DNA of 64,000 nt from Pelobates cultripes (lineage: Eukaryota; Chordata; Amphibia; Anura; Pelobatidae), in assembly GCA_933207985.1 (NCBI GenBank), contig OW240917.1, forward strand, positions 120,079,257-120,143,256. The letters are read 5' to 3'. The notes below the pieces were generated by a model. That model had not been told where the DNA came from. It did not search any database and saw only the letters and a program-made list of their open reading frames with translations. Shown here piece by piece: positions 13,762 to 32,025 of the stretch; the first letter of the stretch is position 1; each line of letters opens with the position of its first letter. The position numbers were made by a program, and so were the translations under genes.

Positions 13762-15355
13762 CAGTTGCAAGAAAAAGTATGTGAACCCTTTGTAATGATA
13801 TGGATTTCTGCTCAAATTGGTCATAAAATGTGATCTGATCATCATCTAAGTCACAACAATAGACAATCACAGTCTGCTTAAATTAATAACACACAAAGAA
13901 TGAAATGTTGCCATGTTTTTATTGAACACACCTCGTAAACATTCACAGTGCAGGTGGAAAAAGTATGTGAACCCTTGGATTTAATAACTGGTTGAACCTC
14001 CTTTGGCAGCAATAACTTCAACCAAACGTTTCCTGTAGTTGCAGATCAGACGTGCACAACGGTCAGGAGTAATTCTTGACCATTCCTCTTTACAGAACTG
14101 TTTCAGTTCAGCAATATTCTTGGGATGTCTGGTGTGAATCGCTTTCTTGAGGTCATGCCACAGCATCTCAATCGGGTTGAGGTCAGGACTCTGACTGGGC
14201 CACTTCAGAAGGTGTATTTTCTTCTGTTTAAGCCATTCTGTTGTTGATTTACTTCTATGCTTTGGGTCATTGTCCTGTTGCAACACCCATCTTCTGTTGA
14301 GCTTCAGCTGGTAGACAGATGGCCTTAAGTTCTCCTGCAAAATGTCTTGATAAACTTGGGAATTCATTTTTCCTTCGATGATAGCAATCCGTCCAGGCCC
14401 TGACGCAGCAAAGCAGCCCCAAACCATGATGCCCCCACCACCATACTTCACAGTTGGGATGAGGTTTTGATGTTGGTGTACTGTGCCTTTTTTTCGCCAC
14501 ACATAGTGTTGTGTGTTTCTTCCAAACAACTCAACTTTGGTTTCATCTGTCCACAGAATATTTTGCCAGTACTGCTGTGGAACATCCAGGTGCTCTTGTG
14601 CAAACTGTAAAAGTGCAGCAATGTTTTGTTTGGACAGCAGTGGCTTCCTCTGTGGTATCCTCCCATGAAATCCATTCTTGTTTAGTGTTTTGCGTATTGT
14701 AGATTCGCTAACAGGGATGTTAGCATTTGCCAGTGACTTTTGTAAGTCTTTAGCTGACACTATAGGATTTTTCTTCATCTCATTGAGCAGTCTACGCTGT
14801 GCTCTTGCAGTCATCTTTACAGGACGGCCACTCCTAGGGAGAGTGCTGAACTTTCTCCATTTATAGACAATTTGAACAGCAAGGCTTTTGGAGATACTTT
14901 TAAAACCCTTTCCAGCTTTATGCAAGTCAACAATTCTTAATCGTAGGTCTTCTGAGAGCTCTTTTGTGTGAGGCATCATTCACATCAGGCAATGCTTCTT
15001 GTGAAAAGCAAACCCAGAACTGGTGTGTGTTCTTTATAGGGCAGGGCAGCTGTAACCAACACCTCCAATCTCATCTCATTGATTGGACTCCAGTTGGCTG
15101 ACATCTCACTCCAATTAGCTCTTGGAGATGTCACTAGTCTAGGGGTTCACATACTTTTTCCACCTGCACTGTGAATGTTTACATGGTGTGTTCAATAAAA
15201 ACATGGCAACATTTCATTGTTTGTGTGTTATTAGTTTAAGCAGACTGTGATTGTCTATTGTTGTGACTTAGATGATGATCAGATCACATTTTATGACCAA
15301 TTTGTGCAGAAATCCATATCATTCCAAAGGGTTCACATACTTTTTCTTGCAACTG
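13762..15355 (-). mobile_element. Tc1-type DNA transposon, nearly complete
   Basis: The element is bounded by TA at 13760-13761 and 15356-15357. Its terminal inverted repeat is CAGTTGCAAGAAAAAGTATG and its complement. A further subterminal copy of the 'cacatactttttccacctgc' motif lies about 200 bases in from each end, giving an IR/DR-like layout. The one gene is on the minus strand (13981-14979). A 170-base piece of the same family, with a 12-bp internal deletion, is at 41261-41430. Confidence 0.92.
13981..14979 (-). CDS. Tc1 transposase, DD34E
   Basis: A 332-residue cut-and-paste transposase. An N-terminal helix-turn-helix region lies around residues 10-40, a GRP-hook-like 'SGRPVK' at 50-55, and the second DNA-binding half at 60-105. 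The catalytic core follows. Asp145 (LWTDETK), Asp236 (LQQDNDPK) and Glu271 (DLNPIE) are all present, with exactly 34 residues between the last two, and the Gly-rich box ([10 protein letters not shown]) is intact. The frame is uninterrupted. The segment between the first helix-turn-helix and the GRP motif looks several residues short against typical Tc1 proteins ('[20 protein letters not shown]'), so DNA binding may be impaired. It would act in the nucleus on the 13762-15355 ends. Confidence 0.9.
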
Positions 15356-15830: not shown

Positions 15831-17284
15831 ACCCCTCTGATACTCTGGGTGGCCATTACATACTGGCTGGGGAATATATGTATGGTACAGCTCTGCAAGT
15901 GGAGCGTCACCTTATAGCAGCACCTTGATGACAAAAGCCGGACAGCCCACAATTGTTATTATTGCATCTGCATATTGGGTCTATGTTTGTGTCATGACAT
16001 TGTGTAATCAGTTCCATGCTTACAGACTGGCAATGTGAAGAAACTGCAGTACTAAGTATCAATGTGACAATTTTGATTGTATGACTCAAGTCTTATTTAG
16101 CTCCCTCCTCCCCCTTTCTTTTCTGCATCTCCTATGTTTTGGATTATTGACAAAATAAAAATGGTCAAATTGAAGATAAAAATGGCAACACAAAGTATAA
16201 GTAGTTTTGAAAGTGCTAAGTTGTTATTTATATAAAATGTCTCATGGCAGACCAATATTTTGTTAAAACCTTCCTTAACAGGCAATTGTGTAATTTTTAC
16301 TGCAATATTACAAATTGTTCAATTATTAACTCATTTTATTGTGTTTTTTTCACGTTACTATTGCCACTTATGAAATTATCACAAAGCGAAACAATACACC
16401 GCTGTTGTTCTGTTCTTGAATGCTACAGAATTATAGTAATAATATTGTAATAACATTTTAAATTAAAGGCATTTGCAACAACATTCTCTTTTCATACTTT
16501 ACATCTGCCATCCCATGACAACACATCTGACATTCATTGAGAGAAAAATAAAAAAAACAACAAAAAACACATTTTAAAACACATTCCTAGTGTATATTTT
16601 ATTTAGGCATTTTATTTAAGCATTACATATGAATGAAGCTGCAACTCATGTGAATGGAGAAATGGGGCTATTTATCACTTTTCAAGAGAAGTTTGCAATA
16701 TTTATGTGGAACAAACAGCACTAGATGTATTAAAAATGATACCAATGTAATTGGAGGACTTTAGTGAGATCATAACATGTGTGAAAACTAACAGATGTAC
16801 AGTATCTTCACTATGCCTCCAATGCTACTTTCAAATACACCGACTCATATCACATATTATTAATAATATAATTTCCATAGTTTTTTAGTAAAAAAAACAA
16901 CACATTTTAAAAGAGACCAGATTGTTCCATTCACGGTCTCCAGCTGCAGCAGCAGGATATGAACTGAATTCTATATTTCTTGCTGTTTAACAGCATTAGA
17001 CACCTGAAAAAATAATACGCAGAGCAAGGTTCATGGCAGGTTCATTAAAATGAAAGAAATAATAACATTATTGAAAAAAATAAATACAGAATGATCAGTT
17101 ATAATCTGATGTTTGGAGGACATCCGTGTCTATTGGTGGTGGCTGATGCATTTTGGTTTGGTGGTTTGTATCCAAACAGATAAAACTTAAAAGAAATTCA
17201 TTTCTGTTTAGATTTTTTAGAGAGATAAGTACAAAGGTAACATTTAATCTTTGCTCAAAAAAAAATTATGAAGGCATGCTAAAT
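15831..17284. other. AT-rich non-coding stretch
   Basis: No long frame, terminal repeat or known family motif is seen. The frames present are short and compositionally like random AT-rich sequence. Confidence 0.5.
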
Positions 17285-17465
17285 CTAATTTTATGGCAAG
17301 ACAGGAGGCTTCATATTTGCTTATCTTTCTTTACTGTAACTCCCAGCAGCAAAGAAATGGTTAACAATGTTGTATGGAAAAATCAACCAATCACAACATA
17401 TCTCAACTACAATATAGTGTCATCAAACTCCTCCCACTTCCTCTTTCTTTGCTGCTTGCCTCCCA

Positions 17466-17721
17466 GGTGAGTCTGCTCCAATTACATTGCCTTACTGGTT
17501 TAAGTTAATTCAATATTTTTTTTTTTATTTATACCTTGTTACAGCATACTCAGAATTCAGCTTAAAAAATTTATTTTTTTAATTTAATCACCTTTCCCTT
17601 TAAATATTTTCCTCTTTTCCTCACACATATTTTGTATTTTTTCCTTATTTCACTGTTCTGTTATTGTCATTGCTTTTCCTTTAAATTTAGGTGTCCTAAC
17701 CGATTACTTTTTTTGTTCCAG
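17466..17721 (+). other. Candidate first intron in the DIRS leader
   Basis: CAG|GTGAGT at 17464-17472 is a strong donor match. A pyrimidine-rich run ending 'tttttttgttccag' at about 17721 is a good acceptor. A second donor-like GAAG|GTAGGT near 18027 and an acceptor 'tttttctccaacag' ending at 18134 would make a second intron. This is prediction from consensus only. Confidence 0.3.
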
Positions 17722-17764
17722 TGCACGGAGGGTTTTTTCAAACCCTGCCGCTTTCAATCAGCTG

Positions 17765-17849
17765 GCCGCGGCTCTATTCTCTCAGGGAGAGCCGCGGCCC
17801 ATTCTCTGTCTCTCTTCAGCCGCGGACTCCATTTCCCAGAGTCCGCGGC
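17765..17849 (+). repeat. Two adjacent GC-rich hairpins in the DIRS leader
   Basis: 'gccgcggctct' at 17765-17775 pairs with 'agagccgcggc' at 17788-17798, and 'gccgcggactc' at 17819-17829 pairs with 'gagtccgcggc' at 17839-17849. Each is a perfect 11-bp stem, and the two share the GCCGCGG half. They stand out in an otherwise AT-rich leader. Confidence 0.85.
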
Positions 17850-18168
17850 TGCTTTTTTCCCGCCGTTACCTTCCTCCCTCCTACCAAAGGCGATTGCCAT
17901 TTCTACGGCGGCGATCTCGCGGCGGCCATCTTAAACCTTAGTAGTAACGGCTAACGGCTCCTCCACTGCGGCGCACAAATTTTACAATCATCCTAGTGGG
18001 TACAGACCTTATTAATAGTTTGTGGAAGGTAGGTTTTGCTGCCACCTTATATCTTCACTTTTTTTTTTTTTTTTCACAAGCTCATTAAAAATGATCTTTT
18101 ACTTATCTATCTCCTATCTGTTTTTCTCCAACAGGCTTTGCCCAACACAGGACCATTTTATTACTATC

Positions 18169-18602
18169 TGGGTGAACCCCTTTCTTTAAATTGTATAATT
18201 ACAGTGTGGTTTTTGTTTTGACCAAATTTTGCTGTTTGACCATTTTATTTCCCTCATGTGGGTGAACCCCACTTACTTATCTAAAGTACATATTATGTAC
18301 AATATTTGTGTGGCTGACACCACCTACTGAAAACACTGCTGTGTAAATATTTATGTGGCTAACACCACCTGATTTATTTTCTGTGGGTGACCCCCATTAC
18401 TTACTGTGCATTATATATACATTATATATATTACTAGTGTAATTTTATAGTGGTGACCCCACCTCACTAAATTCACAAGATTTCTAGTACTCTCAATCTG
18501 TATTATTGGGTGACCCCCATTATTTGTCATTTGCTAATTTATTGTGCCAAGCATTTGTGGGTGACCCCCCATTGATTCTGACGTCTCGTGGGTGACCCCC
18601 AC
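18169..18602 (+). repeat. Nine-copy array of GTGGGTGACCCCCAC motif
   Basis: Copies or close variants start at 18169, 18258, 18310, 18355, 18383, 18450, 18507, 18557 and 18588, spaced irregularly 28-89 bases apart, just upstream of the first start codon at 18684. Most copies can form a 4-5 bp stem (GTGGG with CCCAC) around a TGACC-type loop. The stem is kept in variants such as GTGGCTGACACCAC, where both sides differ from the consensus. Function is unknown; RNA packaging, translation control or protein binding are possibilities. Confidence 0.8.
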
Positions 18603-18683
18603 CTCATATTTTTTTTCTAATTGAGTTGCCTCATCCTTAATTGATACTCTAATAGGGTTTACATTTATCTTGAAATTGTCATT

Positions 18684-21600
18684 ATGTCAGATCGCCAAGA
18701 CCCTGCGATTTCTGCTGAACTTAAGGAATGGCTTTTCTCAACAATCGCAGAGTCCATTCCTAAGGCTCTGGCAGCCTACCATGAACGTAATCCAGAGGTA
18801 CACCCCTCTACACAACAGCCCTCTGATTCTGAGGACTCCCATATTTCCGACCAAGATAACGCCCCGCGCAAGAGACCCTGGAAAGGGAATAGCGCTACTG
18901 CGGGCAAGGGCAAAGCTCCTGCTAAGGTCATTAAACAATCTAAACCTTACGTTTTGCAGGATGCTACAGACCCTACAGAGGGTTCTACTTCACGTTTATC
19001 TGGCCATATTCTAAGTGACTATGACCCTAATTACTCGGATGAGGATCCCATGGTGAATGTGCCCCAGGATTCCTCAGCATCGGAGTTTGTGAAAGAAACC
19101 TTCCTAAGTCAAGATCACAAGAGTAAGGTACCTGACTCAGACACCCTCCTGGATGCTTCAGGCCTTCCCCTTTTTGACCCAAGGGTGATACGCCACCCGC
19201 GCTCAGCAGAATGGGCTCCCCCAGATCATATTGCTAATTTCTGTAAACTGTGGCTTCGCAAGCCTCTCGAAAAAGAAATCAGAAACAAACTAAGGGCTGA
19301 ATGCCCGAGACCAACTATTCCAGGCAAAGTTGCCTCTACCCCTGAATTTGACCCCATGCTGGTCACCTATTTAACAAAATCTGGTAAAGACCCTCGTAAG
19401 GGTATTGAACAGGGTTTGAAAGCAACCCAAGACAAATTATTGGACATTTCAGGTCCTATCATACAGATATTCATACTCGCAGATGAGGCACTCACCAGCG
19501 GTGAACTTGATCCGCACATTATAAGAGAATGGGCACAGAGAGCCCTTTGCCTTTTGGGCAACGCCAATACGGCTATTTCAATTGAGAGACGCAAAGCGGC
19601 ACTGTACAAAATCGATGCCAAACTGGTGGATTTGAGCACTAAAGAACTAGGCCCAGAGGCCGATGGTCTTTTATTTGGTAACAGTTTCATGCGAGACCTC
19701 TCCAAGCATGTCTCAGTTTTTACCACACTCAATAAAGCCCAGTCCTCCCTACGTAGGGTGTTCCGTCCCACTTTTCAAAATCGTTTTTCTGGGAGAGCTG
19801 GTCGCTCAAGGGGCCGAGCTACCAGTAGAGCAGCCTTTTCAGGCTACAGGCCCCGACCCACAGAGTATTGGTCCACGGGATACTCACGACCCTACCACAG
19901 GCAGCTGTTCAACACCAGAGGCTCAATTCGAGGACGTGGCTCTGCATCCCTGCGCGGACGCACTGCTTCAGGTAATGGACCTTGCTTATTTAAAAACTGT
20001 ATCAATCGCAGGTCGATTAACATTCTTTTTCCCACAGTGGAAACTTCTTTCTCAGGATCTTTGGATCCTTCATACAGTCACAGGTTTCAAAATAGATTTT
20101 ATCACACATCCAGTTCAATATTCTCACCCGACACCCTTAGGGATGTCAAAAGCAGATACTCTAACCTTGAACACAGAACTGACAAAATTGTTACACAAAG
20201 GGGCAATCGAACCTTCGCCTTTCCCTTGCACCTTCCTCAGCAATATATTTCTGGTTCGGAAGAAAACGGGGGACCATCGTCCCATTATCAACCTCAAGGC
20301 GTTGAATCGCTTTATCACATACCGTCATTTCAAGATGGAAGGTATCCATCTTCTCAGGGACTTGCTCTGCATGGGATACTGGTTCTCCAGATTCGACCTC
20401 AAAGATGCTTATCTGACGGTCCCTGTAGCACCAAGTCACCGTGCCTTCCTCCAATTCCGTTGGCAAGGCGACATTTGGCAGTTCACCTGCCTCCCCTTCG
20501 GACTTTGTTCTGCTCCATGGTGTTTCACCAAGTTGATGAAACCAGTCATGGCGCTCCTTCGTTCTCAGGGCATACGTTCAATTATATATTTGGACGATAT
20601 CCTGATCATGGCACAAGATCAGCAATTACTTCGCACACACACACACATGACCTCTGCCCTCCTTCAAAACCTAGGTTTTGTCATAAATTACCAGAAATCA
20701 GACCTGGTACCTTCTCAAATAGTCCAATTTTTGGGTTTTCAGATAGATTCAGTTCAAGCAACTCTACAATTACCCTACTCCAAAATCAAAAACATAAAGC
20801 GAGAGATTCAAAAATTACTCAAGTCACAACGACCTCGACTCCGCGACCTAGCACACGTGCTGGGTCTTCTGTCTGCATCAATTCAGGCTATTTTTCCAGG
20901 GCCCTTGCATTACAGAGCAATGCAACGGCTGAAAACCTCCTATTTACATCGCTCGACCTCCTACGACCAATTCATTTCCCTAACGGACGAAGTTCTTATC
21001 GAACTTCACTGGTGGCTTCGCAATATGGAAGCCTGGAATGGGAAAGCGATTTTCGGATCTCAACCAGATTTTATTCTGGAATCCGATGCCAGCCTACTCG
21101 GTTGGGGCGCTACGTGCGCCCAATCATACACAGGAGGTCTCTGGTCCCCGTCGGAACGAGCACTTCACATAAATTGTCTCGAGCTCATTGCCGGATCCTT
21201 CGCGATCCGCAGCTTTGCCAAAGAAGCCTCCAACTGCTCTCTGGTACTTCGGATGGACAACATCTCCACAGTACGATATGTAAACCGTCTCGGAGGGTCC
21301 AAATCGAAACTACTGTCAGACCTCACCAAGGATCTGTATCAGTTTTGCTTAGACAGGAATCTGTCTATTCGGGCCGAGTATCTCCCAGGCCCCGACAATT
21401 TAGTCGCGGACTGGTTCTCACGTCACTGGAGGGATGCCAGCGACTGGCAATTAGATCCTCTTCTATTTCACCACATTCACCTATTGCGGGGACCGCTCAC
21501 TCTCAACCTCTTCGCGTCTCGGCTGAATCGTCAAACAGACGATTATTTCAGCTGGTTACCAGACCCTCTATCCCTTGCTGTCGACGCTTTTCTCCAACAT

Positions 21601-22796
21601 TGGCCACGGGACGGAGCCTATGCCTTCCCTCCCTTCTCCATGATTCAACGTACTCTCCACCAGGTCAAATCACAGGGGGTCAAGATTGTGATAGTTACCC
21701 CTCTATGGCGGGCCCAGACGTGGTTCCCCACTCTTCTGGAGCTTTCCACAGACTACCCCATCATTCTACCTCGCTCACATCGGGTTCTCAAGAACTCAAC
21801 GGGCGACTACCATCCACTAGCTCTACAGGGCCACCTTCAGTTAGTGGCCTGGACAGTTTCAGGGGTGCTTGGCATGTCGCAGGACTTTCAGGCACTGCTC
21901 AAACACTCCTATGGGATTCATGGGCACCAGGAACCAGGCGCACCTATCTCGCCGCATGGCGAGTTTGGGTCAGCTGGTGTCTGGAGAGGGATTTCGATCC
22001 CGTTTCAACATCTCTCTCATCCATTCTAAATTTTCTATCATCCCTTTTCGATCAGGGTAAATCATACCGATCAATTGTTTTTCGTTCCGCCATTTCGGCG
22101 GGACATGACCCTATTGATAATTCCTTAGTTGGGAAACATCCTTCTGTGTGCAGACTTTTACGAGGCATTCGTTTGACGAGGCCACCTTCTGCCAAATACT
22201 CTGGCTTCTGGGACATATCTCGAGTCTTCGCATTGTTAGAGTCCTGGCCTCCTAACGAGGCCTTATCCCTTCGACAGCTCTCTGCAAAATTGGCCCTGCT
22301 ACTGTGCCTGGTGTCATTCCGCAGAGTTTCTGACGTTCACGCTTTTGATTCACACGCTGTCTCCTTCACACCAGAAGGGGTCCGATTTACGATTACTAGG
22401 CGCACTAAGACGAATTCCTCGTCTGTTTTTTACCCATACTTTCCCGACAGGCCAGCCCTCTGTGTGGCTCTGTGTACTCGTTGTTACACAGAGGCAACTG
22501 CCGCCCTACGTTCTCCTACCGGTCCTCTTTTCATCTCTTATGTCAGACCTCACAAACCGGTCTCTTCCCCCACTATCGCTCGCTGGATAAGATGGTTACT
22601 TATCCAAGCGGGAATCGATAGTTCATTTGGGGCCCATTCGGTTAGAGGAGTGGCTGCTTCCTCTGCCTTTCGGGCCGGCAGTTCATTAGCAGATATTTTG
22701 TCCTGCGCAGATTGGTCAAGGGAATCTACCTTTCGGACTTTTTATTTTAAACCAACACAAACACATGCGGCTTGTTCTATTATTCGAGAGCGTTAA
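18684..22796 (+). CDS. DIRS gag-like / tyrosine recombinase frame, 1370 codons
   Basis: One frame runs from ATG 18684 to TAA 22794-22796. Residues 1 to about 430 are gag-like: acidic/Ser-rich N-terminus, a conserved middle, and an Arg-Gly-rich nucleic-acid-binding tail (SGRAGRSRGR, RGSIRGRGSASLRGR). Residues of about 430-1070 are Ser/Pro/His-rich, with no recognisable domain, and lie exactly opposite the RT/RNase H frame. From about 1078 (SWAPGTRRTYLAAW) a tyrosine recombinase follows: Arg1213 in FRRVSDV, His1318-x-x-Arg1321 in HSVRG, and Tyr1354 in TFYFKP. The recombinase would integrate a circular DNA form without target duplication. How one frame yields separate gag and recombinase proteins is not evident. 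Internal initiation or splicing is likely. Confidence 0.85.
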   Translation: MSDRQDPAISAELKEWLFSTIAESIPKALAAYHERNPEVHPSTQQPSDSEDSHISDQDNAPRKRPWKGNSATAGKGKAPAKVIKQSKPYVLQDATDPTEGSTSRLSGHILSDYDPNYSDEDPMVNVPQDSSASEFVKETFLSQDHKSKVPDSDTLLDASGLPLFDPRVIRHPRSAEWAPPDHIANFCKLWLRKPLEKEIRNKLRAECPRPTIPGKVASTPEFDPMLVTYLTKSGKDPRKGIEQGLKATQDKLLDISGPIIQIFILADEALTSGELDPHIIREWAQRALCLLGNANTAISIERRKAALYKIDAKLVDLSTKELGPEADGLLFGNSFMRDLSKHVSVFTTLNKAQSSLRRVFRPTFQNRFSGRAGRSRGRATSRAAFSGYRPRPTEYWSTGYSRPYHRQLFNTRGSIRGRGSASLRGRTASGNGPCLFKNCINRRSINILFPTVETSFSGSLDPSYSHRFQNRFYHTSSSIFSPDTLRDVKSRYSNLEHRTDKIVTQRGNRTFAFPLHLPQQYISGSEENGGPSSHYQPQGVESLYHIPSFQDGRYPSSQGLALHGILVLQIRPQRCLSDGPCSTKSPCLPPIPLARRHLAVHLPPLRTLFCSMVFHQVDETSHGAPSFSGHTFNYIFGRYPDHGTRSAITSHTHTHDLCPPSKPRFCHKLPEIRPGTFSNSPIFGFSDRFSSSNSTITLLQNQKHKARDSKITQVTTTSTPRPSTRAGSSVCINSGYFSRALALQSNATAENLLFTSLDLLRPIHFPNGRSSYRTSLVASQYGSLEWESDFRISTRFYSGIRCQPTRLGRYVRPIIHRRSLVPVGTSTSHKLSRAHCRILRDPQLCQRSLQLLSGTSDGQHLHSTICKPSRRVQIETTVRPHQGSVSVLLRQESVYSGRVSPRPRQFSRGLVLTSLEGCQRLAIRSSSISPHSPIAGTAHSQPLRVSAESSNRRLFQLVTRPSIPCCRRFSPTLATGRSLCLPSLLHDSTYSPPGQITGGQDCDSYPSMAGPDVVPHSSGAFHRLPHHSTSLTSGSQELNGRLPSTSSTGPPSVSGLDSFRGAWHVAGLSGTAQTLLWDSWAPGTRRTYLAAWRVWVSWCLERDFDPVSTSLSSILNFLSSLFDQGKSYRSIVFRSAISAGHDPIDNSLVGKHPSVCRLLRGIRLTRPPSAKYSGFWDISRVFALLESWPPNEALSLRQLSAKLALLLCLVSFRRVSDVHAFDSHAVSFTPEGVRFTITRRTKTNSSSVFYPYFPDRPALCVALCTRCYTEATAALRSPTGPLFISYVRPHKPVSSPTIARWIRWLLIQAGIDSSFGAHSVRGVAASSAFRAGSSLADILSCADWSRESTFRTFYFKPTQTHAACSIIRER
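19663..22029 (+). CDS. DIRS reverse transcriptase / RNase H
   Basis: This frame is shifted +1 relative to the gag/recombinase frame and overlaps it completely. From about residue 105 it reads as a DIRS pol. RT motifs are 'RPIINLKALNRF', 'FDLKDAYLTVPVAPSHRAFL', 'CLPFGLCSAPWCFTKLM' and YLDD at residues 309-312. RNase H follows: Asp475 in ESDAS, 'INCLELIAG', 'RMDNISTVRYVN' and 'LPGPDNLVADWFSRH'. The last 170 residues (SRLNRQTDDYFSW, YAFPPFSMI, VTPLWRAQTWFPTL) correspond to the conserved DIRS tail sometimes compared with adenine methyltransferases; I cannot confirm a methylase motif. The listed ATG lies inside gag. The Met near 19975 (MDLAYLKTVS) is an alternative start. Confidence 0.88.
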   Translation: MVFYLVTVSCETSPSMSQFLPHSIKPSPPYVGCSVPLFKIVFLGELVAQGAELPVEQPFQATGPDPQSIGPRDTHDPTTGSCSTPEAQFEDVALHPCADALLQVMDLAYLKTVSIAGRLTFFFPQWKLLSQDLWILHTVTGFKIDFITHPVQYSHPTPLGMSKADTLTLNTELTKLLHKGAIEPSPFPCTFLSNIFLVRKKTGDHRPIINLKALNRFITYRHFKMEGIHLLRDLLCMGYWFSRFDLKDAYLTVPVAPSHRAFLQFRWQGDIWQFTCLPFGLCSAPWCFTKLMKPVMALLRSQGIRSIIYLDDILIMAQDQQLLRTHTHMTSALLQNLGFVINYQKSDLVPSQIVQFLGFQIDSVQATLQLPYSKIKNIKREIQKLLKSQRPRLRDLAHVLGLLSASIQAIFPGPLHYRAMQRLKTSYLHRSTSYDQFISLTDEVLIELHWWLRNMEAWNGKAIFGSQPDFILESDASLLGWGATCAQSYTGGLWSPSERALHINCLELIAGSFAIRSFAKEASNCSLVLRMDNISTVRYVNRLGGSKSKLLSDLTKDLYQFCLDRNLSIRAEYLPGPDNLVADWFSRHWRDASDWQLDPLLFHHIHLLRGPLTLNLFASRLNRQTDDYFSWLPDPLSLAVDAFLQHWPRDGAYAFPPFSMIQRTLHQVKSQGVKIVIVTPLWRAQTWFPTLLELSTDYPIILPRSHRVLKNSTGDYHPLALQGHLQLVAWTVSGVLGMSQDFQALLKHSYGIHGHQEPGAPISPHGEFGSAGVWRGISIPFQHLSHPF

Positions 22797-22799
22797 AAC

Positions 22800-22918
22800 A
22801 GCAAATATGAAGCCTCCTGTCTTGCCATAAAATTAGGGATTATTCTAGCTTGTAGTGAACGAATAATCTGAATTTTATTAAAAACAGGAGGCGAATATTT
22901 TCCCTCCCTTCGTTCACT
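22800..22918 (+). repeat. DIRS right terminal region with inner complementary hairpin
   Basis: 22810-22846 and 22860-22894 are imperfect reverse complements ('gaagcctcctgtcttgccat', 'gggattattc' against 'gaataatct', 'acaggaggc') separated by about 13 bases. The second arm is also a direct repeat of the left terminus (17281-17318). 'agtgaacgaa' at 22854 pairs with 'ttcgttcact' at 22909. The arrangement matches the internal complementary region expected of DIRS elements. Confidence 0.75.
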
Positions 22919-23080
22919 CCGGAACCCACCCTCGAGGTAAGTCTCATAATCACTAATTAATGTATGATACCATTATTTACATACAAATCTGCTATATACG
23001 ATTTGTTCATCTTGTGGTCCTACACCTATCTCATAGAGTGCTGATAGATCTTTATGATTTCGATTATTCTGTCAATTTGT

Positions 23081-23180
23081 NNNNNNNNNNNNNNNNNNNN
23101 NNNNNNNNNNNNNNNNNNNNNNNNNNNNNNNNNNNNNNNNNNNNNNNNNNNNNNNNNNNNNNNNNNNNNNNNNNNNNNNN
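23081..23180. other. Assembly gap (100 N)
   Basis: One hundred unresolved bases; the true size is unknown. It lies between the DIRS right end and the decayed recombinase element. Confidence 1.
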
Positions 23181-23189
23181 TTCCTTAAA

Positions 23190-25600
23190 TGCATTACAGT
23201 ATTTAATTCCTGAAAGGATTTTGAAGGTAGGAATCTAGGACCGAAAGTGGGCACCATTTGTTGTGGGTAGGATAGTATGTTATCTCTACTGTTGGTGCGT
23301 GTTGACTCGTTTCGGAATGTGGTAGAGCCAATAGGTAATGATATATGTGTTTACGTACGTGGGATCGTTAAAGTCAATGATCTGTCTGAGTGGTGGTGAT
23401 GGTAGTGGATTCTCTGGCCTGAGAAAGGCATAAAAGGCAATGTGCATGGCTGGTAATGGCCGACTTGGTAGTATAATTGAATGGTTGTAGATCTAATAGG
23501 TCTAATAGGTCCGATAAGGATGAACAGTTGGATGGCTATTGGTAATCTCTGAGAGGAACGTGGGGGAATGGATTCCTGAAAACCTCTGGAGTATATTCTT
23601 TTCTGGTATGATAGCATGAAGTTTATGGTAGTTTTGGCCATAGGTTATCATGTGTTGTTGAATGCCTGTAAAATATATAATTAATGGTGTATGAGATAGT
23701 TTAAGTTTAAGGTGGCAAAAATAAGCAAAACTTAGGAGAAATTTTGTGACACAGGTTGAGCTATGTCGTATTCTAATGAGATTCTTTAAGCCAGGTGAAA
23801 AGCTGTGTTATGCGTTCTACAAGTATGGGACGAAAGTGCTAGGTGGGATAGTGCATGCTATGCTGCATGAGTATGTCTAATCCATGATTTTGTCTCTGGA
23901 ACGAAAGGGTGGACGTGACTGTATGGGCGGCTGTAGGAAGCGTATGATGAACATGCCTGGAATATAAATGAGACAGTTGTCGGCAGGGATGTATACCCCC
24001 GTCTGGCACATGAAAGTGAAATGTGATAAGTGGCCAACCAAGTGAGTTCCCCAGAAACATCATGAACTTATGGATGAGTAGTGGCGTTTGTTGATGATAT
24101 GATATGTGCTTAGTTGTCTGAGTAACAACGGATTGATGACCCTGACCATGATTTACCCCATGCCACAGCAGCCGCTACAATGGGGTAGATCTCCCAAAGG
24201 GGCTGAAGTGGTGGAAAAATTTCCAAACCTGGATGCCATGGCCAACAGCCCCAAAGCAATTGTTCCCGGTAGATTGCTGCCAAACCCGTGGTATATGCTG
24301 CGTCTGACCATCTGGTTGGAGAAGTGTCAGACAATCCTGGAAGGAACATGCTTTTACCATGCCAAGTGGTTAAGAAATCCCCCCCCATGTGCAGGTCTGC
24401 TGTTGCTGAGGTGTCTAGGCACCTCCTCTGATCATCATGTTGGAAGTGTGGAAAAAAGGGGAAAGTACTCTGGATGTGAAAGCGTGGTCTTGTGGTATGA
24501 TTGGCATGGCAAAATTAAGGAACCTGGTAGGGATTGTAGTTCCTTGTAGTTGTAAGTACTAAGCAGGAGGTAGTGATTGATTTAGTTGAGAATGTTCCCT
24601 ATTTGTCTTGTGGTAACTTGCGCGTATGGATGCCGACTCAAGTCATATGCCCAGTAATGTGATGATAGTGTCTGCGCCTTCTGTTTCTTATGGGGTACTG
24701 GGACGCCCAAGTGGTCAACCAGACTAAGCTGCCATGAGGCTTCTAGTGAAAAATATGCTTTCTTTGAGCAACAAGAAGTCTTCTAGATAGTGTATGACTG
24801 TAATGCCTCTGGATATGTTATCATAACCAGCACAGAGTATCTGCGAATATCGATAGTAGGTTAATCTGTAGCTCGAAAGTTGAGCAGGGAAAGGATTGCC
24901 CAATTTATGCCATGTAAGTGCCAGTGTGTAGGGTAGATGGTAGCTGTTTACTGCGTTGATGATATTGGTCTTACTTAACCAAGCTTTAACCCATGCTTGA
25001 GTGATAGCTGTAAAGGTAGATCAATGGTGTTGTATAGTAAGAAGGGAGTTGAGACTTGGGGTAGCGGAGGTGTGTGGTGCCAATAAGTCTATGGTTAGTC
25101 TTTGTTTAAGGGAAGATTCCTTGTGACAATACCAATGTGTGTGTTTGGTGCCATGCTGTAAATGGTGGAGATTGGAAGACCACTCTGCAAATCTTGGCTA
25201 TGAGTGTGTTTTCAGCCAATGGTTTTGTTGTGCTGACTGTAAGTGAGGGCATGCTATATTCCTTGAAGGTGTGTTTATGATACCTGTATGGGAGCCCTTT
25301 GAAGCTCCAGAGCTTTAGTAAATCTACTACAAGTCTGGAAGGGTGATGAGTCAGTAGTGTTGAAAATGCATTGGTGTGTACAGATGGTGAGTACGTTATT
25401 TGTAAGTTGTATTGGGCCACATGGTTTGTCATGTGCCCTGAACCATTTGAACATATATGCAACAGTCTATATGCAATGCAACTACTCATATCAATCGTCT
25501 CTGGAAGTTCAGAGGTGCTGGTACCTGGAGCCTGAGAGTGCTCGTCCATTTGTTTGGGACAGAACCCCTTCTGTATGGGTACCTGCACAAATAAACATCT
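23190..25600 (-). pseudogene. Decayed antisense RT/RNase H/tyrosine-recombinase element
   Basis: Read on the minus strand, blocks appear in the right order with many frameshifts. At 25300-25390 is 'LLTHHPSRLVVDLL', like the region just before RT. At about 24960-24700 is an RT palm with IHYLEDFLLL (24761-24798), the YLDD box altered to YLED, followed by 'VDHLGVPVPHKKQKAQ'. RNase H lies at 24388-24110 (TRWSDAAYTTGLAAIY, ending CYSDN) and 24063-23950 (FHFHVPDGGIH). At 23641-23400 is 'SQRLPIAIQLF', like the start of a tyrosine recombinase core. The layout suggests a DIRS/Ngaro-type element distinct from the one at 17285. No frame is functional. Confidence 0.6.
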
Positions 25601-27842: not shown

Positions 27843-28368
27843 GTGTACAGTCCTCTTCTTCCGGCATCCTTTTAAATCTGTGCTACCGGAAATTAGATTT
27901 CCCGCCGAGTTTCACTTCCGGTATGACGTCATGACGTACGTTCCGTCGCTGCGTCATGACGTGTCGGCTGTTATTGCGTCATTTCGTCATTCCCATGCGT
28001 CCATTCGGCAACCCGGAAGTGACTACAGGGCTCCATTTAGAAAACGGGCAAAAGCAATCCTAATTATAAATGACATCTTATTGCCTCATATAATCCAATT
28101 GAGAAAAATTCTCACATTAAATATATACTGAACACATCATAAAGAAAATATTCAAACAGAATACAAAATATGATTTTCATATTAAAATGCATGGTCATAT
28201 ATATACAATGGGAGTAATAATTAATCCATTCCAAATCAAGTTAAAATCTTAGCATAATATGTAAACAATATATAGTTGCATATGTAGACAAATATATAAT
28301 AAAATGAGACAAAAGGCAAAAAATAAAAGTCATAAAAACGTCTGAAAATATGGAATATACCCAAAAAG

Positions 28369-30768
28369 TCATATCAAAGCTGCCATCTCAAAATCCACGT
28401 TGAGACCGCTGGGAGACAAGGTGTCCAAATTAAAAATCCACCTCATCTCACAGCGGCTCAACGTCGATTCAACATGACCACCCCTCCAATGGGGTTTAAT
28501 ATGTTGGACACCAAAAAAGCTAAGCCCTGTAGGGTCTCCTCCATGGTATTTTAAGAAATGTAGGGAAACATTATGTTTCAGAAAACCTTTTTTAATATTG
28601 TAAATATGTTCTCGTATTCTTGTTTTTAATGTCCTTGATGTCTTTCCAACATACTGTAATCCACAAGGACATACGAGAACATATATTACATTTTTCGAAT
28701 GGCATGTAATAAGGGAATCGATTTTATAATGGTATGTTCCTACTCTTGATTTAAAACTCTCTAATTTCTTTGATTTATTTTTATAAGTTTTACATCCCAT
28801 ACAGTTACCACAATAGTGGAAACCTTTATTGTTATCCTTATAAGTGCTCAAAAAATTGTTATTTTTAGGTTTATCCAAATAACTGGTAGTTAGAATTTGT
28901 CTAAGATTTTTTGCTCCCCTAAATACAATTTTGGGTTTATTATCAATATAGGGTAGAATATCCGTATCCTGCTGTAGTATATGCCAATTTCTATTGATCA
29001 CTCTTTTGAGGGTTTTATGTTCCTTACTATAATTAAAGATCATTGGAATTTTGTCATCCCTTTTTTTATTCTCCCTAGATTTATATGTTAAAAGAGACTC
29101 TCTATTTATTCCTTTAACAGTCCTAATTTCTTCTTCTAATTTATTAGAATCATAGCCCCTATCAATAAACTGATCCTTAAGAGTATTGGCCTGATGTTCA
29201 AAAGAAATAAGGTCTGTACAATTCCGTCTTATCCGGATAAATTGACCCTTGGGGACATTATCGAGCCAAGGTAGAAAATGGCAGCTATCCATGTGGATAT
29301 AACTATTGACGTCCACAGGTTTAAAGAACGTACGAGTACTAATTTTCTGATCCTGTATATATATCTCTAAGTCTAAAAAGTGGATACAATCTGATTTGAT
29401 TTCCTGAGTTAAATGTATATTCCACTGGTTGGAATTTAAAAATGTAATATAATCCAAAGCAGAATTCCTATCACCTTTCCAAATTAAAAAAATATCATCG
29501 ATATATCTTTTGTATAGGACCAGGTTCGCATTCCAGTTATGCGATGAATATACATATCTGTCTTCCCAGTATGACATAAACAGATTCGCATAACTGGGTG
29601 CGAACCTGGTCCCCATGGCTGTTCCCCTACATTGCAAGAAAAAATCATCTTCAAACCAAAAAAAGTTGTTATGGAGGATAAGGGATATCCCCTCCATGAC
29701 AAAATCCACCTGTTCAACAGGATACAAAGTAGAGGATTCTAGAAAAAAGCGTGTGGCTAAACATCCTATTTCGTGATCAATACATGTATACAAACTCGTG
29801 ACGTCACATGTAATGAATAAGTACTCATCTTTCCATACAAAATCTTTTAAAATTTGTAGTAGGCTCATAGAGTCTTTCAAATAAGATGGACTCTTTTTGA
29901 CTAATGGTTGGAGGTGTATATCTACATATTTCGATAAATTCGATAGAAGCGATTCCACACCTGAGACAATTGGTCTACCTGGTGGATTGGATGCATCTTT
30001 ATGTAACTTTGGTAAAGTATATATCACAGGGATTTTAGGTGACTTAACATTTAAAAAGGTATACTCTTTCTGGTTTATAATGCCTTTAGAGAAACCTTTC
30101 TCCAAGTATTTCATAAATTTCTCATTTATATCTATTTGTGGATTTTTCTCTAATTTCTTATATGTGTTATTATCCTCCAATTGACGTCTAATCTCTGAAA
30201 TATATTTATCTCTATCCATTAGAACTACACCTCCTCCCTTGTCTGCTGGCTTAATTACTATTTGAGAGTCTTTCCCTAAATTTTGCATGGCCTGTCTCTC
30301 CTTTTTTGTCAAATTATCTCTTTTATTTTCTTTCATTAGTTTAATATCATTGGCACATGCTCTTTCAAAAACTTTCATGGAATTGGATTTTAAATGTATA
30401 GGGTAAAAAGATGACTTTGGTTTTAACTCTGTATGATTAAAACGAGATACATCCATATTAGTATTTTGATCTTTCACTTGATTTCGATCAAAAAAATTTT
30501 TTAAGCATAGTCTCCTCATAAACCTATTAATATCCGTATATGCCTCAAATTTGTCCATAATGCAACTAGGTGCAAACTTAAAACCTCTATTTAAAACATT
30601 TATTTCATTTGCATTGAGAACTCTTTTTGATAAATTAAAAATTCTTATTTCCTCATGATTTTTTCTTTTCGGTCTCTCCAATCTCTTTCCTCCTCTATTT
30701 CCCCTTCTTCTACGTCCCTGTATCGTCTTTTTTGGGGTATAGGAGTCCGGGTGGGAGGTTCCCTCCAT
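28369..30768 (-). CDS. Penelope-like reverse transcriptase with GIY-YIG endonuclease
   Basis: A single 799-codon frame. After a basic N-terminus (GRRRRGNRGGKRLERPKRK) comes the conserved 'NEINVLNRGFKFAPS' block. RT motifs follow: 'GRPIVSGVESLLSNLSKYVD', 'FITCDVTSLYTCIDH', 'CRGTAMGTRFAPSYANLF', YIDD at residues 422-425 (LYKRYIDDIFLIW) and 'FLDLEIYIQD'. A Cys-rich linker (HYCGNCMGCKTYK) precedes the C-terminal GIY-YIG nuclease, residues about 694-799 (IYVLVCPCGLQYVGKTSRTL, TRIREH). Length and domain order match endonuclease-plus Penelope-like elements. No stops or frameshifts are seen, so the copy may be competent. Upstream sequence ends about 140 bases away, at the junction with the inverted copy. 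Confidence 0.9.
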   Translation of the reverse strand: MEGTSHPDSYTPKKTIQGRRRRGNRGGKRLERPKRKNHEEIRIFNLSKRVLNANEINVLNRGFKFAPSCIMDKFEAYTDINRFMRRLCLKNFFDRNQVKDQNTNMDVSRFNHTELKPKSSFYPIHLKSNSMKVFERACANDIKLMKENKRDNLTKKERQAMQNLGKDSQIVIKPADKGGGVVLMDRDKYISEIRRQLEDNNTYKKLEKNPQIDINEKFMKYLEKGFSKGIINQKEYTFLNVKSPKIPVIYTLPKLHKDASNPPGRPIVSGVESLLSNLSKYVDIHLQPLVKKSPSYLKDSMSLLQILKDFVWKDEYLFITCDVTSLYTCIDHEIGCLATRFFLESSTLYPVEQVDFVMEGISLILHNNFFWFEDDFFLQCRGTAMGTRFAPSYANLFMSYWEDRYVYSSHNWNANLVLYKRYIDDIFLIWKGDRNSALDYITFLNSNQWNIHLTQEIKSDCIHFLDLEIYIQDQKISTRTFFKPVDVNSYIHMDSCHFLPWLDNVPKGQFIRIRRNCTDLISFEHQANTLKDQFIDRGYDSNKLEEEIRTVKGINRESLLTYKSRENKKRDDKIPMIFNYSKEHKTLKRVINRNWHILQQDTDILPYIDNKPKIVFRGAKNLRQILTTSYLDKPKNNNFLSTYKDNNKGFHYCGNCMGCKTYKNKSKKLESFKSRVGTYHYKIDSLITCHSKNVIYVLVCPCGLQYVGKTSRTLKTRIREHIYNIKKGFLKHNVSLHFLKYHGGDPTGLSFFGVQHIKPHWRGGHVESTLSRCEMRWIFNLDTLSPSGLNVDFEMAALI

Positions 30769-30798: not shown

Positions 30799-32025
30799 TT
30801 GTCCAGATCTCTAATTGGTTCAAACCGATTAGATATCTCGATTTCTCTTCTTAATCTCGGAGGTGGACTGTTTTCCCTCCTATATCTTAGGGGAAAACTA
30901 TCATATTTCGTTTGGAAAGGTGATAGGAATTCTGATTTGGATTATATTACATTTTTAAATTCCAACCAGTGGAATATACATTTAACTCAGGAAATCAAAT
31001 CAGATTGTATCCACTTTTTAGATTTAGAGATATTTATACAGGATCAGAAAATTAGTACTCGTACGTTCTTTAAACCCGTGGACGTCAATAGTTATATCCA
31101 CATGGATAGCTGCCATTTTTTACCTTGGCTCGATAATGTCCCCAAGGGTCAATTTATCCGGATAAGATGGAACTGTACAGACCTTATTTCTTTTGAACAT
31201 CAGGCCAATACTCTTAAGGATCAGTTTATAGATAGGGGCTATGATTCTAATAAATTAGAAGAAGAAATTAGGACTGTTAAAGGAATAAATAGAGAGTCTC
31301 TTTTAACATATAAATCTAGGGAGAATAAAAAAAGGGATGACAAAATTCCAATGATTTTTAATTACAGTAAGGAACATAAAACCCTCAAAAGAGTGATCAA
31401 TAGAAATTGGCACATACTACAGCAGGATACGGATATTCTACCCTATATTGATAATAAACCCAAAATTGTATTTAGGGGAGCAAAAAATCTTAGACAAATT
31501 CTAACTACCAGTTATTTGGATAAACCTAAAAATAACAATTTTTTGAGCACTTATAAGGATAACAATAAAGGTTTCCACTATTGTGGTAACTGTATGGGAT
31601 GTAAAACTTATAAAAATAAATCAAAGAAATTAGAGAGTTTTAAATCACGAGTAGGAACATACCATTATAAAATCGATTCCCTTATTACATGCCATTCGAA
31701 AAATGTAATATATGTTCTCGTATGTCCTTGTGGATTACAGTATGTTGGAAAGACATCAAGGACATTGAAAACAAGAATACGAGAACATATTTACAATATT
31801 AAAAAAGGTTTTCTGAAACATAATGTTTCCCTACATTTCCTAAAATACCATGGAGGAGACCCTACAGGGCTTAGCTTTTTTGGTGTCCAACATATTAAAC
31901 CCCATTGGAGGGGTGGTCATGTTGAATCGACGTTGAGCCGCTGTGAGATGAGGTGGATTTTTAATTTGGACACCTTGTCTCCCAGCGGTCTCAACGTGGA
32001 TTTTGAGATGGCAGCTTTGATATGA
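30799..32025 (+). pseudogene. 5'-truncated Penelope-like copy, RT end and GIY-YIG domain
   Basis: Homology to the minus-strand copy begins at 30911 (VWKGDRNSDLDYITFLN), just after the position of the catalytic YIDD, so the RT active site is missing. From there to the stop the frame is intact and almost identical to the full copy, including the Cys-rich linker and the GIY-YIG domain. The first 37 codons derive from the antisense 5' flank of the other copy. A fortuitous start could allow a nuclease-only protein of 408 residues, but nothing shows it is made. Confidence 0.85.

Follow-up and report, generated by a model that had tools for sequence, protein, structure and literature searches.

The window analysed here, a stretch of 64,000 nt from Pelobates cultripes, holds what appears to be a DIRS1-like retrotransposon, its layout agreeing with that of the Xenopus DIRS1-like elements as described in the accessible portions of PMC3266345 and PMC9210276. 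We place the start of the element near 17285-17290, where its left end, a 37-nt stretch of the left terminal repeat (17285..17321, no strand assigned), is the exact inverse of 22800-22836 (100% complementary). The latter stretch (22800..22836, + strand) probably forms the left portion of the internal complementary region, which probably extends further, to about 22900. The 37-nt inverse repeat is an observation; the AAA junction is our own interpretation of the layout. The right terminal repeat is unseen in the window and may lie inside the gap of Ns at 23081-23180. Downstream of the internal complementary region, a strong splice-donor-like sequence (GAGGTAAGT) was noticed by eye at 22930-22945.

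A single open frame of 1370 aa (18684..22796, + strand) runs from gag to a putative tyrosine recombinase, and a reverse transcriptase ORF of 788 aa (19663..22029, + strand) is nested within it. The reverse transcriptase matches PF00078 (E=3.7e-21) and has 845 relatives among the 7998 candidates scored, the best nine of which are from frogs and toads. The putative tyrosine recombinase matches PF00589 at E=2.8e-5 over 157 residues, with 24.4 bits versus a cut-off of 27.1, and Gag has no Pfam match at E up to 1. The start of gag is shared with a P. cultripes gene model, to which its first part (34%) is 93% identical. The P. cultripes gene model P0133, named as an alkaline phosphatase, comprises this gag, then the reverse transcriptase frame, then phosphatase sequence; its structure looks like a predicted splice joining gag to the reverse transcriptase frame. 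Across the nested ORF, the gag-tyrosine recombinase frame has 0 stops in 788 codons, compared to 29.4 in synonymous-codon shuffles (minimum of 13 in 2000), and a stop-free gag frame of 1358-1385 codons occurs in 24 of the 96 genomic places scored (out of 15,918 candidates). The overlap frame has a single match in the protein collection, at 21%. A long overlap of pol and tyrosine recombinase is already known from DIRS1-like elements (PMC3266345), and the accessible portion of that paper makes no mention of a fusion of the overlap frame with gag.

Elsewhere in the window, a Tc1/mariner-like transposase ORF of 332 aa is found at 13981-14979. Two near-identical long ORFs with a GIY-YIG-like C-terminus lie on opposite strands at 28369-30768 (- strand) and 30799-32025 (+ strand), with matching inverted hairpins at 27926 and 32442. 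Together, these ORFs and hairpins look like a large inverted duplication of one element, which we take to be Penelope-like; the ORF at 28369-30768 (- strand) has no Pfam match.

The feature of main concern is an array of short motifs in the leader of the DIRS1-like element, within a predicted 5' UTR exon (18135..18683, + strand) that is depleted of ATG and has none in 18354-18683. Nine motif cores occur, all on the + strand: copy 1 at 18168..18182 (CTGGGTGAACCCCTT), copy 2 at 18258..18272 (GTGGGTGAACCCCAC), copy 3 at 18310..18323 (GTGGCTGACACCAC), copy 4 at 18355..18368 (GTGGCTAACACCAC, a local duplicate of copy 3), copy 5 at 18383..18397 (with a G.U outer pair), copy 6 at 18450..18462 (shorter by one G and one C, with the loop length unchanged), copy 7 at 18506..18520 (with a 4-bp stem), copy 8 at 18557..18572, and copy 9 at 18588..18602 (GTGGGTGACCCCCAC). 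A relaxed regular expression matches nine times in 18140-18684, compared to a mean of 0.15 and a maximum of 3 in 1000 dinucleotide shuffles, which bears out the nine-copy array reported in the first-pass annotation. Its description of nine pairing hairpins holds for the array as a whole and fails for copy 1, which is degenerate and pairs over 3 bp only. It had also placed the array directly before the first start codon, and this was mistaken: ATGs at 18091, 18256, 18295, and 18353 precede the gag ATG at 18684, and another four are located at 17293-17374. GC-rich stems of any sequence and at least 4 bp number eight in 18140-18684 (0.87 in shuffles, with a maximum of 4), and other 545-nt bins of the window contain 5-12 plain hairpins. 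A stricter 14-mer, allowing two mismatches, was found seven times in the whole window versus 3.3 expected, a number reached by 9 of 100 shuffles and thus not unusual. Given that hairpin density is common to other bins and the 14-mer is unremarkable, the signal is the clustering of one motif.

The copies are irregularly spaced, unlike those of a satellite, as had been noted at first pass. The cores are separated by 14 to 75 nt, and most flanking columns show an identity close to chance (among the first ten 3' columns, two are higher, at 0.78 and 0.61). This argues that the array is not a plain minisatellite; Tandem Repeats Finder reported no array at the leader. Some neighbors do share flanks, with copies 3 and 4 sitting within a 25-nt repeat (92% identical) and copies 5 and 7 having 19 nt in common (95% identical), and this is what might be said for a decayed minisatellite without function. 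However, fixed differences between three close clusters of related leaders (38 leaders) amount to 4/130 in cores versus 57/323 in spacers (P=1.2e-5), and the stems show the matched changes described below. A within/between (MK-like) contrast agrees in direction and is not significant (P=0.22). Based on the enrichment of the motif, the flanks, the conservation of the cores, and the lack of a Tandem Repeats Finder array, and assuming the alignments to be correct, we rejected both the decayed minisatellite and a functionless chance cluster, which we find scarcely credible.

Taken alone, the window provides weak evidence for covariation. When the arms of the nine related copies were re-dealt in a hand-made register, P values were 0.012 for the sense and 0.001 for the antisense hairpins, or 0.037 and 0.006 if copy 4 is omitted. 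Individually, the hairpins are weak (-2.9 to -6.2 kcal/mol) and, in their sequence context, often outcompeted by other pairings. In 9/9 copies, the antisense hairpin taken in isolation has a higher stability than its sense counterpart, and the folding energy of the whole leader, calculated for both strands as RNA and as DNA, is not unusual compared to shuffles (z of -1.22, -0.42, -1.26, and -1.60). Copy 3 had been put forward at first pass as an example of compensatory change. This does not hold, as its fifth pair went from G-C to a C.A mismatch (U-A in some related leaders) and the copy belongs, with copy 4, to the 25-nt repeat; a better example of joint change is copy 6, in which a G and a C have been lost together. 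We also considered and rejected a translated repeat, as the upstream ORFs in the leader do not exceed 44 aa and the peptide words encoded by the hairpins are missing from the first 150 residues of the 234 proteins scanned.

Related leaders in the host genome were gathered as sequence stretches and by similarity searches, at the DNA level (scoring 40 of 145 candidates) and with Gag (scoring 96 of 15,918 candidates, 69-100% identity). Distant relatives were reached through P0142 (146 of 10,830 candidates scored), another P. cultripes Gag, which shares 51% identity with the window Gag over 66% of its length. Because only part of the candidates was scored, copy counts of leaders are lower bounds. 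Exclusion of L097, for which the gag start was not located, left 89 of 90 loci, 26 of which duplicate another in the last 900 nt, mostly as the same place found twice. The 63 distinct loci and L158-L168 make up 74 leaders, and the four found through P0142 bring the number to 78. The comparison of related leaders, a check proposed in the first-pass annotation, found the array to be kept: 72 of the 74 distinct leaders have 4-11 loop-only matches in their last 650 nt, and so do 4/4 of the more distant ones (6-7 matches each), whose places match P0142 at 61-91%. No matches were found in L167, which reads as foreign sequence, or in L144, which reads so upstream of its last stretch; both were retained among the 74 and excluded from the representatives. 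Hairpin number, spacing, and order vary between families, which indicates that the array turns over. A genome-wide search for the motif, proposed alongside, gave 138 + 120 occurrences of two spaced copies versus 0 + 0 for the reversed pattern. As the two-copy pattern demands intact GTGGG/CCCAC arms, it is uninformative regarding covariation. A pattern scan of IMG/VR yielded 66 stretches with one match apiece, which we took as chance, and reverse transcriptase scans of IMG/VR found none. The one match from a scan of GTDB contigs (34%, in a bacterial MAG, L067) was set aside.

Stem pairing was evaluated in 224 hairpins (140 distinct) from 27 representatives hand-picked from the 78 leaders. The hairpins were located by their loop and closing G and C runs, with the arms unconstrained. 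Pair 1 is Watson-Crick in 116/140 hairpins (95 T-A and 21 A-T) compared to 88.0 with arms re-dealt (maximum of 104 in 10,000), and pair 2 is Watson-Crick in 85/140 (71 G-C, 6 T-A, 5 A-T, and 3 C-G) compared to 63.8 (maximum of 78 in 10,000). Neither of these counts was reached in 10,000 shuffles, which supports the first-pass claim that pairing is preserved. Out-of-register 3' bases pair with the same 5' bases in 16-31 (pair 1) and 18-44 (pair 2) hairpins. Among 29 two-nt arm combinations, seven are fully paired. When the common GT/AC arms are removed, pair 1 is still above all shuffles (54/78 versus 37.9, with a maximum of 52) and pair 2 loses significance (23/78, P=0.095); in a set of 23 representatives without these arms, the P values are 0.010 and 0.33, respectively. 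The excess is marginal at pair 3 (P=0.026) and not significant at pair 4 (P=0.23). Out-of-register matches of these two pairs (up to 74 and 65) exceed their partner matches (35 and 36), so the shared stem mostly consists of two pairs beyond the G-C closing pairs. For comparison, the 45 loop-only matches in the window outside the element include 18 with a Watson-Crick pair 1 and 17 with a Watson-Crick pair 2. The arm shuffles treat hairpins as unrelated and ignore kinship; this objection applies least to the stem swaps seen where families differ strongly in Gag.

Around the UGACC-type loop, stems have been rewritten whole, as GTGGG/CCCAC, GAGGG/CCCTC, AAGGG/CCCTT, CAGGG/CCCTG, and TTGGG/CCCAA. 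The stems of one leader (L158) include CAAGGG/CCCTTG, AACAGG/CCTGTT, GTTTGGG/CCCAAAC, CTGGG/CCCAG, and CAGGG/CCCTG, and those of another (L172) include TGAGGG/CCCTCA and AGAGGG/CCCTCT. The inner pair occurs as G-C, as U-A (several leaders), as A-U (L148, L150, L151, and L162), as C-G (L146 only), and also as C.A. The loop has a length of 5 in 92/140 hairpins, for stems with three and with two Gs alike. A strand call from the counts of G.U versus A.C (21 versus 4, pairs 1-2) was dropped, as both were estimated to be near the expectation from column composition. Also dropped was a presumed likeness of the motif to GLI/GLIS/ZIC and nuclear-receptor sites. That stems are rewritten in matched pairs disfavors an array of duplex-DNA sites for a zinc-finger or similar protein, acting as an insulator or enhancer in the manner of gypsy, as a reader of duplex DNA needs no matched changes in the outer arms. 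We consider such an array highly improbable, even though its layout would be like that of the gypsy insulator, for which the accessible portion of PMC7800606 describes 12 degenerate Su(Hw) sites within 460 bp of transcribed but untranslated 5' sequence.

The strand on which the hairpins act is indicated by orientation and by start codons. In 23 representatives hand-picked from the 74 leaders, 199 motif matches lie on the sense strand versus 3 on the opposite strand. The last 330 nt of these leaders contain 16 ATGs versus 174 expected from dinucleotide shuffles, whereas CAT is normal (181 versus 199 expected). In the four more distant leaders, the counts are 9 versus about 30 for ATG and 21 versus about 20 for CAT, and in the window leader they are 0 versus 8.7 for ATG (0 versus 5.0 with cores excluded). 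As ATG is purged while its complement is normal, the leader resembles a scanned 5' UTR, and we infer that the array belongs to an mRNA leader through which ribosomes scan. Two of the upstream ATGs (18256 and 18353) are formed where hairpins 2 and 4 begin, by an A that precedes TGTGG; in a leader otherwise purged of ATG, they are a price paid for the motif. A role of the hairpins in single-stranded cDNA or antisense RNA, in the replication or silencing of DIRS and not in mRNA, is improbable: the one-strand orientation and the purging of ATG but not of CAT tie the region to the sense mRNA. This weighs against the greater stability of the antisense hairpin in all nine window copies, the stronger antisense result of the window-only arm test, and the report that the inverted repeats of Dictyostelium DIRS-1 are both promoters (PMC4482531, accessible portion), all of which would suit such a role.

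An intron is predicted in the leader at 17467..18134 (+ strand), with the donor CAG/GTGAGT at 17467 and a pyrimidine tract plus CAG before 18135. By strict motifs, the window leader has this single donor and this single acceptor, and the predicted acceptor end at 18134 sits 33 nt before the first hairpin. Splicing of the leader is a prediction that is only partly backed. CAGGTGAGT is present in 12/20 leaders listed, the window leader included; among the eight without it, seven stretches are too short to reach and one (L150) extends far enough and does not contain it. Eight of the 20 leaders have a looser acceptor motif, and the other 12 do not. Across the whole predicted intron (17480-18134), ATG is not significantly depleted (1 versus 4.0, P=0.058). 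The depletion in 17480-18090 (0 versus 3.6, P=0.016) speaks against the predicted intron being unscanned. Inside the predicted intron lie two perfect GC-rich hairpins of 12 and 13 bp (17764-17799 and 17817-17851, + strand). Many, though not all, of the closer leaders listed have these hairpins in full or truncated form; the distant ones do not. By eye, L171 and L172, which represent distant families, show a donor-like GGTAAGT and, shortly upstream of the array, a pyrimidine tract plus GCAG; in these leaders, the array again seems to open an exon. Should the intron exist, both the spliced and the unspliced RNA would carry the array, which is an unusual placement for a packaging signal restricted to genomic RNA.

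We conclude that the leader very probably holds a selected hairpin array that acts at the RNA level. The comparison of leader sequences bears this out, in that the array is kept across families, stem changes are matched, the loop core is kept, one orientation prevails, and ATG is purged. The hairpins have a stem of mostly 4-7 bp that ends in two to three G-C pairs; their loop is of the UGACC, UGAAC, or UGAUC type. It is probable that they serve as protein-binding RNA hairpins, whichever the protein, a reading that overlaps with that of a host protein discussed below. The protein would recognize the loop, with the stem as a scaffold, and the many copies would allow multivalent, avid binding.

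The most likely binder may be the element's own Gag, a tentative assignment to which we give somewhat less than an even chance. Gag is favored because the array persists with the element's gene set and adjoins gag on its upstream side, and because the C-terminal part of Gag is arginine-rich, with RG and RS motifs. By binding the array, Gag would tag the element's RNA for assembly and, once abundant, would slow translation of its own RNA. Alternatively, the array could be read by a host RNA-binding protein that acts in export of the intron-bearing RNA, its stability, localization, or translation. The evidence from covariation, loop, and orientation applies in the same way to a host reader, and the predicted splice pattern would need an aid to export or translation. 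Furthermore, the loop core is identical in families found through the 51%-identical Gag, so a conserved host ligand fits as well. However, no host protein with this loop preference was found, and Rfam 15 gave no match at E up to 1 within 16000-24000; we regard a host reader as rather unlikely. It is conceivable, though somewhat doubtful, that a whole amphibian DIRS clade possesses a multivalent RNA code read by Gag, consisting of a renewing set of 4-11 hairpins with free stems and a fixed UGACC-type loop, with copy number and spacing setting the strength of packaging and translation.

To our knowledge, cis-acting RNA signals have not been described previously in tyrosine-recombinase retrotransposons, nor has an array of up to eleven hairpins with one loop and free stems, and we know of little work on RNA selection, export, and translation by DIRS elements. 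A multivalent array read by Gag, if true, would be the first cis-acting RNA signal for tyrosine-recombinase retrotransposons. The motif is about 15 nt long, occurs in multiple copies, and has natural compensatory variants within one genome, which makes its ligand and function directly testable. The accessible portions of PMC9210276 and PMC3266345 make no mention of a leader hairpin array in DIRS1-like elements. The first-pass opinion that such an element is undescribed in DIRS stands for the literature searched, outside of which lie most subscription papers and the Repbase reports.

The element shares with the DIRS1-like retrotransposons of amphibians the reverse transcriptase, the long ORF overlap, and, probably, the tyrosine recombinase, the inverted repeat, and the internal complementary region. 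Its array is like the gypsy insulator in having about ten short degenerate motifs over ~450 bp of transcribed leader, and differs from it in that the gypsy array is bound by protein as duplex DNA, whereas the stems of the array in the window covary. In retroviruses, Gag-binding hairpins in the leader are already known, with packaging signals that comprise one to a few of them. The MMTV purine loop is an example of a retroviral packaging stem-loop (PMC8096270, accessible portion). Like these stem-loops, the hairpins described here are conserved-loop leader hairpins upstream of gag; in contrast to them, they come as 4-11 look-alikes, with Gag as the putative ligand. In small RNA viruses, packaging-signal hairpins with a common loop motif and variable stems are spread over the genome. 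The array resembles these in its many hairpins, single loop motif, and free stems, but whereas theirs are genome-wide, those found here are clustered in the leader of a retrotransposon.
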